Part shown: positions 1 to 15,060 of the stretch, one piece after another | Layout of the letters: each line of letters begins with the position of its first letter | Numbering within the stretch: the first letter of the stretch is position 1 | Source of the DNA: a virus | Length of the DNA stretch: 32,329 nucleotides | IMG/VR virus record: IMGVR_UViG_3300028388_000441 | Span: 1-32,329 of that record | Direction: 5' to 3' (one strand) | Program-made: the position numbers and the translations under genes | The notes under the pieces: model-generated | Databases searched by the model: none | What the model saw: the letters and a program-made list of their open reading frames with translations, nothing else | Told to the model about the DNA's origin: nothing

Positions 1-450
1 CATGTCATACTGAGACTTTTCTCCGAGATACCAAGTTTGTGTGAAAAAATGATTATTTTTTATTGTTTGATTTTTTACTGCTTCAATCACTTCCTCGAGT
101 TTTTGAGAAATTTCTGGTAGATCTTCCGGTCTACCGTTGCGAATAAAGAAAGATCTTTCCTTTTGAATAAATTCGCAAGCTGATTTAAATCTTTCAATCG
201 GATCTCTTCTTATTGCAATTTTAAATGAGTTTTTTCTGAATGGCAGATTAAATCCATCTGCTTCTTCTGTGACTCTTCGATATCGGTAATTATAATTACC
301 GGTCACATGTCCCATGTGCTCCATTCCATAGATTTTACGAAGAGCAGACTTTAATGTCGTCATTCCGTTTTTGGGACAAATCCTTACATCGATGTTATTT
401 GGAAAATATAAAACATTGTCATACGGTGAGATTTGATATTTCGGAATCAT
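1..450 (-). CDS. Sulfotransferase-family protein, 3' part cut by window edge
   Basis: The frame is open from an ATG at 450 to the left edge (150 codons, no stop), so the C terminus is missing. Residues 24-34 (ICPKNGMTTLK) resemble the 5'-phosphosulfate loop of PAPS-dependent sulfotransferases (usual form HIPKTGGTSL). Residues 81-91 (RRDPIERFKSA) match the 3'-phosphate motif (RdPxeRxxSaY). Residues 133-142 (NHFFTQTWYL) fit the downstream H-x-x-x-Q segment of the Sulfotransfer_2 type. The ATG at 450 is chosen because GGAAG lies 9 nt upstream and because the first motif lies upstream of the next ATG (363). It overlaps the end of the dCMP deaminase gene by 32 bases, so the two are probably translationally coupled. 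Family membership is inferred from motifs. The substrate is unknown; a surface glycan or phage protein is a guess. Confidence 0.7.
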   Translation of the reverse strand, partial: MIPKYQISPYDNVLYFPNNIDVRICPKNGMTTLKSALRKIYGMEHMGHVTGNYNYRYRRVTEEADGFNLPFRKNSFKIAIRRDPIERFKSACEFIQKERSFFIRNGRPEDLPEISQKLEEVIEAVKNQTIKNNHFFTQTWYLGEKSQYDM

Positions 451-3748: not shown

Positions 3749-3919
3749 TCACCAATTGTGAATAATGTTTGACATGATAAAGAAACAAGTCACAAAATTC
3801 ACAGTCACAAACAAAGAACGAACAATAGTCACAACATCATCATACTCGGCAGTTTTTTCGTCACTATAACTGCCGATCGCATACTTCCATATAGTCCAAA
3901 CCTTTTCTCTTGCTGTCAT
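3749..3919 (-). CDS. Small membrane protein (56 aa), conserved-looking
   Basis: A 56-aa frame starting MTAREKVWTIWKYAIGSYSD, with a hydrophobic C-terminal half (SLFVTVNFVTCFFIMSNIIHNW) that should span a membrane once. It resembles short proteins I associate with cyanophage-type T4-like genomes (memory, not a search). Its ATG (3919-3917) overlaps the TATAAT box of a consensus sigma-70 promoter at 3918-3946. A transcript from that promoter would therefore begin inside the gene. Translation would need read-through from upstream. No strong Shine-Dalgarno is visible, only GAAG 4 nt away. Function unknown. Confidence 0.6.
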   Translation of the reverse strand: MTAREKVWTIWKYAIGSYSDEKTAEYDDVVTIVRSLFVTVNFVTCFFIMSNIIHNW

Positions 3920-3946
3920 TATACTTCATGAAACCTCTAATGTCAA
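3918..3946 (-). promoter_or_regulatory. Sigma-70 consensus promoter overlapping a start codon
   Basis: On the minus strand TTGACA (3946-3941), a 17-nt spacer and TATAAT (3923-3918) form a perfect consensus. It lies across the end of the Ala/Pro-rich membrane gene and the start of the 56-aa gene. It would drive gene 44 and the downstream operon including glyA with host RNA polymerase (inference). Confidence 0.75.
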
Positions 3947-9274: not shown

Positions 9275-9415
9275 TTACTTCCCATTTTTGTCAATCTCTT
9301 GATAGACTTTGGTGAGCATATCCCGATTTTTATGATCGAGACTATTATACATTCTTTTGACTGCTTTGTCAACCTTACCTGATTTTCGAAGCATTTTTGC
9401 TTTCTTGCCGTTCAT
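9275..9415 (-). CDS. Small basic protein (46 aa)
   Basis: 46 aa, beginning MNGKKAKMLRKSGKVDKAVK and ending VYQEIDKNGK: strongly basic and helical. Its ATG overlaps the gene 47 stop (ATGA, 9412-9415). Short Lys/Arg-rich proteins of this type occur next to gene 47 in T4-like genomes as I remember them. A perfect sigma-70 promoter (9344-9372) lies within this gene. A nucleic-acid-binding role is possible but unproven. Confidence 0.7.
   Translation of the reverse strand: MNGKKAKMLRKSGKVDKAVKRMYNSLDHKNRDMLTKVYQEIDKNGK
9344..9372 (-). promoter_or_regulatory. Sigma-70 consensus promoter inside the 46-aa gene
   Basis: TTGACA (9372-9367), a 17-nt spacer and TATAAT (9349-9344) on the minus strand form a perfect consensus. 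It points toward the 89-aa gene and gene 46, giving them a start independent of gp47 and gp55. Confidence 0.7.
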
Positions 9416-10471: not shown

Positions 10472-11062
10472 TTATTCTACCAGAAAATCAGAAAGATCCG
10501 AATCGACTTTGACGGTACGTTTCCGTCGCTTCTTTTCTTCTTGCATGTATTCTTTAAATTCATCATCAGCACCCTTAACTACGTCGATTCTATGGCGAAG
10601 AACTTCTACCAGCGGAACGACATTACTCCAATCAGGATCATCGTCTCCAACTTCGATATGATGTTCGATTCCTGCCTCGGAGATATACTTCAAACGAATA
10701 TCCTGCTGCTTCTTCTCTCGATTAATTCGACGCAAGAAAGCATACCAGGCGATCTGAGTAAAGTATGCAAAAGCATTCGGAGTACCCGTACGAGTTGCTG
10801 CTTCGACGTTGTAGTTTTCAATTGCTTTGAGGCAGTTCTCAACAGCGTCCATCACCATCTCTTCACGGTAAGTATAACGAACAAAATTCGACTTGTGAGA
10901 AAGTCCTTCAGCGATTTTCAAAAAACACTCGGCAATATAATCAGTAACAATCGGCGGAGGGTCACCATTCGCAATCGCATCTTGTTTAGATTTTACATAT
11001 TCGACCACCGCCAAAGAAAACTCTTTGTTATTGACATAGTGCGGTTTGTTCTTCTTTTCCAT
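10472..11062 (-). CDS. 55: Late-transcription sigma factor gp55
   Basis: 196 aa from ATG 11062 (GGGG 6 nt upstream; the frame extends to 11080 without a ribosome site). T4 gp55 has 185 aa. Residues about 61-118 carry a divergent sigma-70 region 2: TYREEMVMDAVENCLKAIEN, then NAFAYFTQIAWYAFLRRINR. The extreme C terminus SDLSDFLVE is hydrophobic and acidic, like the sliding-clamp-binding tail of gp55. It directs RNA polymerase to TATAAATA late promoters; such boxes occur in this window at 14183, 18415 and 22705. A sigma-70 promoter (11092-11120) precedes the gene. Confidence 0.93.
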   Translation of the reverse strand: MEKKNKPHYVNNKEFSLAVVEYVKSKQDAIANGDPPPIVTDYIAECFLKIAEGLSHKSNFVRYTYREEMVMDAVENCLKAIENYNVEAATRTGTPNAFAYFTQIAWYAFLRRINREKKQQDIRLKYISEAGIEHHIEVGDDDPDWSNVVPLVEVLRHRIDVVKGADDEFKEYMQEEKKRRKRTVKVDSDLSDFLVE

Positions 11063-11091
11063 AATAAACCCCAAGTACATGATTAAGCAAT

Positions 11092-11123: not shown

Positions 11124-11152
11124 TTGACAAAACCGAAAAAATAAGGTATAAT
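11124..11152 (+). promoter_or_regulatory. Orphan plus-strand sigma-70 consensus promoter
   Basis: TTGACA (11124-11129), 17-nt spacer and TATAAT (11147-11152) on the plus strand, a perfect consensus. Transcription would start near 11159 and run antisense to the 121-aa gene and uvsW. No convincing plus-strand gene follows until dam at 14209. An 8-base hairpin (11177-11197) lies in the predicted leader. Confidence 0.7.
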
Positions 11153-11184
11153 ATTAGAGTCCTGCCGGGGAAGGTTGAGTATCC

Positions 11185-11550
11185 CTAGTGGATATTCGGT
11201 TTGAAAGGTATGATATTCGTTCCAGAGTCATCAGAAAAAGAATCTTCGGCAACTGAACTTTTTTCCGAAGGATTCTCATTCAATTCTTTGATCCCAATGA
11301 CATACTCTTTGATTAAATCCGGAGTGGGGTTGGCATAGGCAACAATTTTATCTGCACGAATAACGATTAGGTCTTCTTCTTTTTCTTGATAGACCATAAA
11401 AGGGCGAAAGGTGTAGATTCTAATACCAAAATCTGTCATCTTTGATACTATTTTCAGAGCGTCTTTTATGACGACATCAAAATCACCATCCTCAATAACC
11501 CTGCAGAGAATTTCTTCGCCCGTAACTAACTTAATTTGTTTTACTGACAT
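11185..11550 (-). CDS. Hypothetical protein, possible Sm-like N-terminal domain (121 aa)
   Basis: 121 aa; AAGGA lies 6 nt before ATG 11550. The N-terminal 75 residues are beta-rich and begin MSVKQIKLVTGEEILCRVIE, then FDVVIKDALKIV. This pattern (strand, TGE-turn, strand, 'long-chain' strand) is reminiscent of Sm/LSm-type small barrels, but I cannot test it. The C-terminal 40 residues are acidic and Ser-rich, ending NIIPFKPNIH. It sits between uvsW and gene 55. Its stop lies in the loop of a hairpin. No firm function. Confidence 0.8.
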   Translation of the reverse strand: MSVKQIKLVTGEEILCRVIEDGDFDVVIKDALKIVSKMTDFGIRIYTFRPFMVYQEKEEDLIVIRADKIVAYANPTPDLIKEYVIGIKELNENPSEKSSVAEDSFSDDSGTNIIPFKPNIH

Positions 11551-11559
11551 GAGATTTCC

Positions 11560-13038
11560 TTATTTTAGGTTTATTGGGTAAATTTTATATTTGAATCCTT
11601 CTTTGGTATATATCTTTATTCTTTCCGCACTGTGCCGGAGAGTAAAGTTCTTATACCCTCTGGTATGAAAATCGTCAGCAATGTCATACAGAACGGTGTC
11701 TTTTCCGTCGTCAGACTTTCTCAGTCCTCTTCCGATACTTTGAAGTACTTTGATCTGAGATTTCGACGGAGAGGCAAATATAATGTTATTAAGATTCCGT
11801 ATATTAATACCGGTGCTAAAAGTTCCAAGAGAGGCAACGATGATTGCATTTTTCTGTTTCTCCACGATACCACGGATTTGTTCTCTGTCCGTGGCGTCAA
11901 CCTCACCAGAGACGTAAAAAACTTTACGCTCACCTTCTGCCCTTTCTCTCATCATATCGTAAAGCACCTTGCCGTGCTTTTCCACAAATTGAAAAAGAAC
12001 AAGTGTATTACCTTCCAGCGAAAGTGCCAGGTTGGTAATAAACTTGTTCCTCTGTTCGTTCGTAACTATATAGTCAAGTTCTTCCTGATAAGTCTTATTT
12101 TGAATCATATGGCAAACGTCATTATGATACTGAAGCAACATTATCTTAATGTCAAGTTCAGCAAGAGTTTTCTTTTTCTGCAGGTCTACAGTGGTGGTGA
12201 CTTTGTAAACTGGACCAAAAAGTCCTTCAAGTACCAATTTATTAGTTTCAGTACCGTCAAGAGTTCCTGTTGTACCGAATCTATATTCTGCGTTGATTGC
12301 TTTATTCATAATTCCGGACAAAGACTTTGCCTTAAATCCATGAACCTCATCTCCAAATATCGCACCGAACTGATGAAACCAGTCTCCACTCAATTTGTAT
12401 ATTGATTGCCAGGTGGAAATGATGATTCGCTTCTCGGTATTTTTATCTTTACCAGAGTAAACCTTGTGGCAAACATTTTCGACATCAAATCCATAATCTG
12501 AAAAATCCTTGTACATTTGCTCAACCAAAGAAGTTGTAGGAACGATTACAAGAACTTTCTCTTCATGGTTGTCTAAGTACCAGCGCATAAGGTTGTAGAT
12601 GATAAAGGATTTACCAGAACCTGTGGGAGAAAGCAGAATGCATCGTTTGTTCTCAATGCCGTGAGAGATTGCATTATACTGGTAGTCACGCACATCGAAA
12701 GGACTGCCAAGATTCTCTAGGTATTTAACGAGTTCCTGATGATTGACAGGATTCTTAAGTTCAGGATGCCCATAGTCACCATCGATGATCTGTAGAGGGT
12801 AGAACCTATCCGCGCAAAATTTCTTCAGGTGTTGCCAAAGACCAACGTTAAGTTCCTTGGATACCTGATTAAACAACCGCACTTTGCCGTCCCAGACTTT
12901 ACGCTTAAATGCAGGCATAAATTTATGCCCCGGTACAAAGAACGAAAAGTATTCTCGGAGTTCTTGCGATTGCGCAGGATTACAGTCTATGAGAAGCATA
13001 GAATGATTCCGCATTTGAACGCGGATAGTATTCTCCAC
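11560..13038 (-). CDS. uvsW: RNA-DNA and DNA helicase UvsW
   Basis: 492 aa (T4 UvsW: 503), superfamily 2 helicase. Motif I is SPTGSGKS (137-144), motif Ia VLVIVPTTSLVEQM, motif II GDEVH (229-233), motif III TGTLDG, motif V VASLGTFSTGI and motif VI QSIGRGLRK. It unwinds R-loops and branched DNA, shutting off origin replication and supporting recombination. The start is GTG 13038, overlapping the stop of the small basic gene; AGGG lies 6 nt upstream. The N-terminal residues (MLLIDCNPAQSQELREYFSF) align with the T4 N domain, so this start is preferred over ATG at codon 9. Confidence 0.95.
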   Translation of the reverse strand: MENTIRVQMRNHSMLLIDCNPAQSQELREYFSFFVPGHKFMPAFKRKVWDGKVRLFNQVSKELNVGLWQHLKKFCADRFYPLQIIDGDYGHPELKNPVNHQELVKYLENLGSPFDVRDYQYNAISHGIENKRCILLSPTGSGKSFIIYNLMRWYLDNHEEKVLVIVPTTSLVEQMYKDFSDYGFDVENVCHKVYSGKDKNTEKRIIISTWQSIYKLSGDWFHQFGAIFGDEVHGFKAKSLSGIMNKAINAEYRFGTTGTLDGTETNKLVLEGLFGPVYKVTTTVDLQKKKTLAELDIKIMLLQYHNDVCHMIQNKTYQEELDYIVTNEQRNKFITNLALSLEGNTLVLFQFVEKHGKVLYDMMRERAEGERKVFYVSGEVDATDREQIRGIVEKQKNAIIVASLGTFSTGINIRNLNNIIFASPSKSQIKVLQSIGRGLRKSDDGKDTVLYDIADDFHTRGYKNFTLRHSAERIKIYTKEGFKYKIYPINLK

Positions 13039-13191: not shown

Positions 13192-13638
13192 TTATGCTCC
13201 AGACTCAAACTTACGCCATTCAATGATGTTTTTGATAGTCTGATGGCGCCATTTCAGATTATCAACAATCTCTGATAAAGTATCTATAATAGTCTTAAGA
13301 TAAACAATTTTTTCTTCACTTCGTTGAATTTCCGGATCAGAATCGTAGTAATGATCCATCTCACCTTTCAAGATCTTTAACCCATTAAAGGGGTCAGGTT
13401 CCCACCCTTTGGTTTGAAGTTCTTCTTGACTCATCTTTCCGTTATAGTACAACCATTTATCTTTAAGCAAAACCTTCTGGGAATGCTCTGCTCGCTTCAA
13501 TTGAAGTTTGGTTAGAGAAAGGTATTGCAGATATTTAGCATGCAGTTTTGGTGTTTCTTGAGAGACTTGCTCATACCGATCACGGGGAATTTCGCAGTCT
13601 TCGTTCCATTCTTTCAGGATCGTATCAAGGTCAATCAT
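13192..13638 (-). CDS. uvsY: Recombination mediator UvsY
   Basis: 148 aa (T4 UvsY: 137). It is fully helical with the UvsY layout: N-terminal IDLDTILKEWNEDCEI, a central basic segment (LQLKRAEHSQKVLLKDKWLYYNGK), and a C-terminal helix ending HQTIKNIIEWRKFESG, close to T4 (FAIKHIQDMRAFEAGK). It loads the UvsX recombinase on gp32-coated single strands. The neighbour uvsW and the order uvsY-small-uvsW support the call. Confidence 0.9.
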   Translation of the reverse strand: MIDLDTILKEWNEDCEIPRDRYEQVSQETPKLHAKYLQYLSLTKLQLKRAEHSQKVLLKDKWLYYNGKMSQEELQTKGWEPDPFNGLKILKGEMDHYYDSDPEIQRSEEKIVYLKTIIDTLSEIVDNLKWRHQTIKNIIEWRKFESGA

Positions 13639-13654
13639 AATAATCCTCAGTCAA

Positions 13655-14158
13655 TTAATTAATTACAAATGTGCTAAATCTAAAAGTTGCTTCGAAAGTT
13701 AAATATGAAACATCATTAGTAGTTGCCGACAATTCAATCGATCCAATATTTGTTGGTATGCAATCGTTATATCTAATCTTTACGTTCTCGTTATTATGAC
13801 TTGTTAAGATTGATACTGTAATGTCAGAGTATGTGGGAAGTTGGTTTGATTGTAGTGCTTGTCGAGAACTTACTTGTCCGGCATTAACAGTTCTTTCCAA
13901 CCAAGACTGCATTTCTTTATATGCAACTAGATCTTCGTCTAGAATCATTGATACAGAGAGTTCTCCATAATTTATTTTGTCGCCAGCAAGAGGGATTGAT
14001 GCGACTCTGCGGACAGGCAATTCTGTTGGAGGAACAGAAGCACCAGGATGAGTAACTGCCTGAGCAAAATACTCAAGATTTGGATAATCTTCCCTGTTGA
14101 TAACTACCTTGAAACCTGTAGGTTGTAAATAGTTTTTATTTGATGTAAGGGTTGCCAT
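13655..14158 (-). CDS. gp19-like tail-tube paralogue
   Basis: 167 aa. Its C-terminal third, CIPTNIGSIELS (133-144) followed by LTFEATFRFSTF, repeats the pattern of gp19 at 20309-20836 (CFPTNVGSIDLS, then FTVEFQVQYW), so it shares the tube fold. It lacks the ARPNLF N-terminal motif of true gp19. A late promoter box (14183-14190) lies 25 bases upstream. It could be a tube initiator, a baseplate-proximal ring or a capsid-to-tail joining ring. Position between gp23 and uvsY differs from T4. Confidence 0.8.
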   Translation of the reverse strand: MATLTSNKNYLQPTGFKVVINREDYPNLEYFAQAVTHPGASVPPTELPVRRVASIPLAGDKINYGELSVSMILDEDLVAYKEMQSWLERTVNAGQVSSRQALQSNQLPTYSDITVSILTSHNNENVKIRYNDCIPTNIGSIELSATTNDVSYLTFEATFRFSTFVIN

Positions 14159-14180
14159 ATTTGCTCCTATAGGGTATAAT
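14152..14180 (+). promoter_or_regulatory. Sigma-70-like promoter for dam
   Basis: Plus-strand TTGCCA (14152-14157), 17-nt spacer and TATAAT (14175-14180), 28 bases before the dam ATG. It overlaps the first codons of the minus-strand gp19-like gene and abuts that gene's late promoter. Confidence 0.65.
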
Positions 14181-14182
14181 TC

Positions 14183-14190
14183 TATTTATA
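14183..14190 (-). promoter_or_regulatory. T4-type late promoter for the gp19-like gene
   Basis: TATAAATA on the minus strand, 25 bases before ATG 14158. This exact box is what gp55 recognises in T4. The expected start site (about 14177) falls on the -10 box of the opposing dam promoter. Confidence 0.7.
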
Positions 14191-14208: not shown

Positions 14209-15060
14209 ATGAAGAAACTAAAAACTCCTTTGCGATATCCTGGCGGTAAGTCTCGTGCTATGAATTTCTTATTTTCTTCGGAAAATATGCCTGTGACTGG
14301 AATCGTAGAGTATCGAGAACCGTTTTTGGGCGGGGGTAGTCCTGCTATTGCATTTAGTAAATTATACCCTGAAACTCCTGTCTGGGTCAATGATAAATAC
14401 TATAATTTGTTTTGTTTTTGGAAAACGCTGAGAGACGAGGGCGAGCGTCTTTCTGAGTACTCGCTAAAAATGAAGGCAAATCATCCTGACCACGATTCCG
14501 CCAAGAAACTGTTTGTTGAGTGTAAAAATGACATTGGAGACCAGAGTGATCCTTTTGAGATTGCCTGGCGTTTCTTTGTGCTTAACAAAGCATCTTTCTC
14601 TGGACTAGGCGAGAGTTCTAGTTTTTCCAAAATGGCATCGGATAGCAACTGGTCTGTGACTGCTTGTGAGTCTCTGAAATATTACAGCAAACTGATCCAA
14701 AACTGGAAGATAACAAACGAGGACTACACCTCGATGCTCTCGGACGATCCAAACGTGTTTGTGTTCCTAGACCCTCCCTATGACATTAAGTCTTTTCTGT
14801 ATGGCAAGAAAGGCGGAATGCATAAAGGGTTCAACCACATGGAGTTTGCTAAAAACCTTTGTGCTCATAAGTGTATGATGATGGTCACCTATAATTCCAA
14901 TGAGCATATTCGCGATTGGTTCAAAGGATGGGATCAGCGTGAGTGGGAACTGACTTACACTATGCAAAGTAAAGGTGCGTATCTCGAAGATCAGAAGAAT
15001 CGAAAGGAACTTCTTTGTCTTAACTACGAAACTCCTACTACAAAAATTCTAGACGCATAA
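14209..15060 (+). CDS. dam: D12-class DNA adenine-N6 methyltransferase (Dam-like)
   Basis: 283 aa (T4 Dam: 259). SAM-binding motifs PLRYPGGKS (7-15) and FLGGGS (39-44) plus catalytic DPPY (188-191 in FVFLDPPYD) place it in the D12 (alpha-type) family, whose phage members often methylate GATC. GAGG lies 5 nt before the ATG. It is the only clear plus-strand gene in the window and has its own promoter. A GATC occurs at 14203-14206, between ribosome site and start codon. It probably protects phage DNA from restriction or marks it. The recognition site is inferred from the family, not shown. Confidence 0.93.
   Translation: MKKLKTPLRYPGGKSRAMNFLFSSENMPVTGIVEYREPFLGGGSPAIAFSKLYPETPVWVNDKYYNLFCFWKTLRDEGERLSEYSLKMKANHPDHDSAKKLFVECKNDIGDQSDPFEIAWRFFVLNKASFSGLGESSSFSKMASDSNWSVTACESLKYYSKLIQNWKITNEDYTSMLSDDPNVFVFLDPPYDIKSFLYGKKGGMHKGFNHMEFAKNLCAHKCMMMVTYNSNEHIRDWFKGWDQREWELTYTMQSKGAYLEDQKNRKELLCLNYETPTTKILDA

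Follow-up and report, generated by a model that had tools for sequence, protein, structure and literature searches.

A gene-less sigma70-type promoter conserved antisense to p121 and uvsW in marine T4-like phages

Among the closest described counterparts of the site reported here are the replication origins of phage T4, oriF/ori(uvsY) and oriG/ori(34). According to PMC3016281, T4 origins combine a promoter carrying a sigma70-type −10 box with an unwinding element, the R-loops formed at them are sequence-independent, and these R-loops are removed (unwound) by UvsW, which is expressed from a late promoter. In PMC2984593 a single theta origin is predicted for cyanophage Syn9, and the expression in cyanophage S-PM2 of CfrI, an antisense RNA of ~225 nt, is described. 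The promoter analysed here, called the orphan because it heads no gene, resembles CfrI (antisense to psbA and a homing endonuclease gene) in that a cis-antisense transcript is predicted at a T4-like phage locus; it differs in its location, in its conservation across the family, and in that its RNA is predicted whereas CfrI has been reported as expressed. With the host-sigma70-like early and middle promoters of T4-like cyanophages the orphan shares the form TTGACA-17-TATAAT, and a promoter of the same construction, with a start-site dyad, drives cpeT in Syn33; the orphan is the most conserved copy and yet is gene-less, with the dyad lying over the start site in relatives. No mention of the site was found in the excerpts available from the literature on T4-like phages.

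The window, that is the whole stretch of DNA analysed, is a marine T4-like viral contig of 32,329 bases, and C48C1 (family Kyanoviridae) is its nearest annotated phage. The orphan (11124–11152, plus strand) consists of a −35 box TTGACA (11124–11129, 6/6) and a −10 box TATAAT (11147–11152, 6/6) separated by 17 nt, so that the perfect plus-strand sigma-70 consensus reported in the first-pass annotation was recovered as a 12/12 match. It thus has the near-consensus boxes and the 16–18 nt spacing of a host sigma70-type promoter. It is the sole plus-strand 12/12 promoter between 7000 and 16000, and the pattern occurs once on that strand over the whole window. Two other 12/12 sigma70-type promoters are present, both on the minus strand (9344–9372 and 3918–3946). 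From the usual spacing of 6–7 nt past the −10 box, the RNA is predicted to start at a G near 11159 and to run antisense to p121 and then to uvsW. The annotation had further described the promoter as lacking a plus-strand gene for 3 kb and as standing back to back with the promoter of gene 55. Both descriptions agree with our results: the next plus-strand gene is dam, at 14209, and 3 bp separate the −35 box of the orphan from that of the gene 55 promoter (TTGCTT-17-TATAAT, 11120 to 11092, minus strand, 9/12).

All of the genes between the orphan and dam, like gene 55 itself, are on the minus strand. The late sigma factor gp55 is encoded at 10472–11080; its start may be an inner ATG near 11062, as alignments with relatives begin at residue 5–7. 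On the other side of the orphan lies p121 (121 aa, 11185–11550), the end of which the antisense RNA would cross first, followed by the helicase gene uvsW (11560–13038), uvsY (13192–13638) and the probable tail-tube gene gp19 (13655–14158). The p121 product is distantly related to PDB entry 3by7_A (E 1.7e-4), which is titled 'uncharacterized protein' and which we take to be an Sm-like protein. It occupies the place that in cyanophages is held by a gene lying between uvsW and gp55 and annotated as 'methylamine utilization protein', an annotation that looks doubtful. A late-promoter-like motif, ATAAATA (14183–14189, minus strand), lies 25 nt upstream of gp19; the motif is not more frequent over the window than expected by chance, and this copy is probably the start of a late unit gp19-uvsY-uvsW-p121 that ends at the orphan. 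The dam methyltransferase gene (14209–15060, plus strand) sits inside this minus-strand late block and has its own promoter (TTGCCA-17-TATAAT, 14152–14180), which abuts the ATAAATA motif of the opposite unit (14152–14189).

Conservation was assessed in 80 loci collected with close relatives of gp55; the p121 homologue was placed by protein search and the region near its stop was examined. A promoter matching at least 10/12 positions, antisense and 56–65 nt from the p121 stop, was present in 57 of 73 genomes, the window included. Several of the 15 failures retained the −35 box and had an altered −10 box (e.g., TACCCT, TATAAG). Six loci appear to have TACCCT as the −10 box but keep a −35-like box (TTGAC in five of them), a variant that might mark a different RNA polymerase preference. 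A larger set, assembled from the gp55 of cyanophages and pelagiphages, had a sigma70-type promoter at the same antisense position in 303 of 325 loci, usually at 54–63 nt from the stop codon of the gene that follows uvsW; these loci had already been picked at a match of at least 10/12, the protein-anchored 57 of 73 being the unbiased count. The loci are mutually related and hence not independent. Among 1703 other gene ends in the same loci, 5 reached 11/12 (0.3%) and 40 reached at least 10/12, the target set of this comparison having been subject to the same preselection. Cultured phages with the orphan include Pelagibacter phage HTVC008M and Synechococcus phage Syn33 (12/12 each) and ACG-2014i and S-RIM8 (11/12 each); the 190 kb of ACG-2014i contain no other TTGACA-16..18-TANANT on that strand.

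Conservation of this kind excludes chance as the origin of the promoter. The two boxes, on whose presence in relatives the first-pass interpretation had depended, are kept family-wide, TTGAC of the −35 box being invariant in 66 aligned relatives. A gene-less promoter preserved almost to the letter in phages of both SAR11 and cyanobacteria must have some role, and its survival in viruses of such different hosts indicates that the orphan is functional; the role is probably that of an antisense switch or of a replication start. At a single site, the orphan allows two unanswered questions about abundant ocean viruses to be tested, the timing of the early-to-late switch and the place where replication starts.

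The promoter is also kept when genes are inserted around it. In 33 loci its distance from gp55 exceeds 300 nt, usually with one or two opposite-strand genes between, and it is retained at distances of up to about 1.5 kb. The site between orphan and gp55 is a variable insertion site in L003, L004, L005 and about 26 more loci, where it contains one or two genes on the opposite strand, in most cases 110–160 codons long. Five other loci have an extra stretch between the orphan and p121. In insertion loci the orphan remains ~60 nt from the end of the abutting gene and is still directed at uvsW.

A second element, overlooked by the first-pass annotation together with the promoter class to which it belongs, was found over the predicted start (11153–11178, plus strand). 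Most relatives carry a short dyad directly past the −10 box and across the start site, the arms of which change together (AGGC-ATGT-GCCT, CCGG-TATGT-CCGG, ACCC-ATGT-GGGT, AACGG-TGT-CCGTT and GGTCT-ATGT-AGACC are examples). The TG at its centre is invariant in 66 aligned sequences and, at offset 5–6, fits −1/+1 of the predicted start in relatives. When right arms were swapped among sequences, dyad pairing fell: for the pelagiphage group and for the window's clade, none of 300 shuffles attained the pairing that was observed; within closely related cyanophage groups alone the test was not significant. In the window itself the dyad is weak (best score 2.5) and the TG loop is missing. Mismatches were compared as a guide to the strand of the dyad: those of the G.T type outnumbered A.C mismatches by 30 to 3 when pooled, stood at 9 to 9 in the window's clade, and elsewhere were in line with shuffles, so that the dyad was assigned to neither strand. 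As the left arm begins 1–2 bases past the −10 box, transcription should start downstream of it, and the dyad therefore appears to belong to the DNA surrounding the start site and not to the RNA.

The predicted RNA itself shows little sign of constraint. Its G-rich start (GCCGGGGAAGG, 11164–11174), which had been pointed out in the window, proved to be common to relatives: in all four relative groups the first 20 transcribed nucleotides are GC-rich, with a G skew of +0.33 to +0.63. The hairpin proposed at 11177–11197 does fold in the window but was absent from the nine relatives compared, and it was rejected as a conserved RNA and regarded as private to the window. The predicted RNA as a whole was no more stable than shuffles (z −0.98 and z −0.27). 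Terminators were found downstream of the orphan in 3 of 127 cases against 4 of 127 controls, none of them conserved, and no excess of synonymous constraint was detected in the codons of the overlapped gene. Rfam scans of the window yielded tRNAs only, with chance matches below threshold at the orphan locus. A hidden small plus-strand gene was also rejected, the open reading frames being 9–45 codons in the window and a median of 25 codons in relatives, with no conservation by eye. The suggestion of an unrecognised small RNA is weakened by these results, in which neither the conserved structure nor the terminator of a small structured RNA was found. A long structured RNA was rejected for want of synonymous constraint and terminators and is unlikely. 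That nothing is conserved as RNA past the first 20 nt argues for an effect in cis.

The reading that we prefer, tentatively and as somewhat short of probable, is that convergent and antisense transcription during the sigma70 phase holds down the late unit uvsY-uvsW-p121 until gp55 takes over; an antisense brake on late genes had already been suggested in the first-pass annotation. While the host sigma70 RNA polymerase is active and gp55 has yet to act, the orphan would fire head-on into p121 and uvsW. Convergent transcription together with the cis-antisense RNA would thereby hold UvsW and the Sm-like protein at low levels up to the late switch, with the RNA sequence past the first ~30 nt being irrelevant, and the GC-rich dyad over the start site may tune opening, escape or RNA start. 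That phages of SAR11 and of cyanobacteria retain the boxes, their spacing, the orientation and the position supports such a brake, as do the rarity of comparable matches at control gene ends and the persistence of the orphan through insertions. CfrI of S-PM2 provides a precedent, and the lack of a conserved downstream open reading frame, terminator, Rfam match or synonymous constraint fits an effect in cis that is independent of RNA sequence. The ATAAATA motif at the head of gp19-uvsY-uvsW-p121 makes the brake fit the place of the orphan at the end of a late unit, and the late, R-loop-removing activity of UvsW in T4 suggests that early silence of uvsW would be useful. Against the brake, ~1.9 kb separates the start of uvsW from the orphan, which would require either a long antisense RNA or interference acting over that distance. 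Where insertions lie on the gp55 side, moreover, an opposite-strand gene begins close to the −35 box, and transcription there seems to pass through the orphan. Late repression alone also leaves the elaborate start-site dyad unexplained.

A transcription-primed origin of the T4 oriF/oriG kind is possible but rather unlikely. The RNA made by the host polymerase would anneal by its G-rich start as an R-loop and prime the leading strand, to be shut off late by UvsW, which is encoded next door. The broader claim, that the gene-less promoter serves the marine T4-like family (Kyanoviridae) as its conserved R-loop replication origin, set beside the gene of the helicase that would switch it off, appears slightly less likely again. 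The sigma70-type −10 promoter, the slight dependence on RNA sequence and the link to UvsW are shared with the T4 origins, and a conserved promoter with an unconstrained RNA body and no coding RNA would fit such an origin, as would the GC-rich, G-skewed RNA start. Also in favour of an origin is the lack of motA and/or asiA in cyanophages (PMC2984593 and PMC5780444). The T4 origins, however, use MotA middle promoters with a defined unwinding element, whereas the orphan has neither a skew nor a strong AT signal. GC skew was negative as evidence of an origin, with no inflection at the element in Syn33, HTVC008M, C48C1 or ACG-2014i, a result compatible both with an origin and with none, and AT content at +20 to +60 was only slightly raised (0.64–0.77). 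Elsewhere in cyanophages, moreover, the promoter with its dyad drives ordinary genes.

The remaining explanations are less likely than either the brake or an origin. It is doubtful that the orphan makes a short phage RNA (about 30–150 nt) that acts in trans and is perhaps held by the neighbouring Sm-like p121. The conservation of the promoter and the first ~30 nt and the distant relationship of p121 to 3BY7 speak for such an RNA, but terminators were as rare as in controls, nothing structured is conserved beyond the dyad, and the left arm of the dyad would lie outside the RNA. Slightly more doubtful is an insulator, in which polymerase bound at the strong orphan would block late read-through from p121 to gp55. 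The orphan does occupy the usual place of a terminator, and within the window no intrinsic terminator was detected in the interval from p121 to gp55; in ~30 loci, however, the start of an opposite-strand gene adjoins the orphan and the gp55 promoter is more distant, an arrangement that seems to need read-through. That the orphan is a by-product of a divergent gp55 promoter architecture, with no role of its own, is very unlikely even though the two promoters are often back to back or interleaved, because near-consensus matches of this kind are rare at other gene ends, the orphan persists far from gp55, and the spacing between the two varies by clade. Most ACG-like phages have 3–7 bp between the −35 boxes, most Syn33- and S-RIM8-like phages have the promoters interleaved, and in the window's clade the gap is most often 5 or 34 bp; coupling of the orphan to the gp55 promoter was rejected on this ground.

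Copies of the promoter with its dyad were also found away from gp55. Syn33 has two further copies (at 13830 and 46909 of that genome), which drive cpeT and a small hypothetical gene and indicate movement or copying of the element inside the genome. Neither HTVC008M nor ACG-2014i has a strong full copy other than the orphan. When viral contigs were scanned for the exact pattern, 80 loci matched, of which 59 were the orphan beside gp55 and 21 lay elsewhere. The dyad as a mark unique to the gp55 locus was rejected on these grounds. Many of the 21 precede small genes, including those for CpeT (phrog_488), a RusA-like resolvase (phrog_244), phrog_718 and phrog_627. An early-gene element has reportedly been described for Syn9 by Doron in 2016. 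The start-site dyad marks a class of promoters that in cyanophages also drives host-derived genes such as cpeT.
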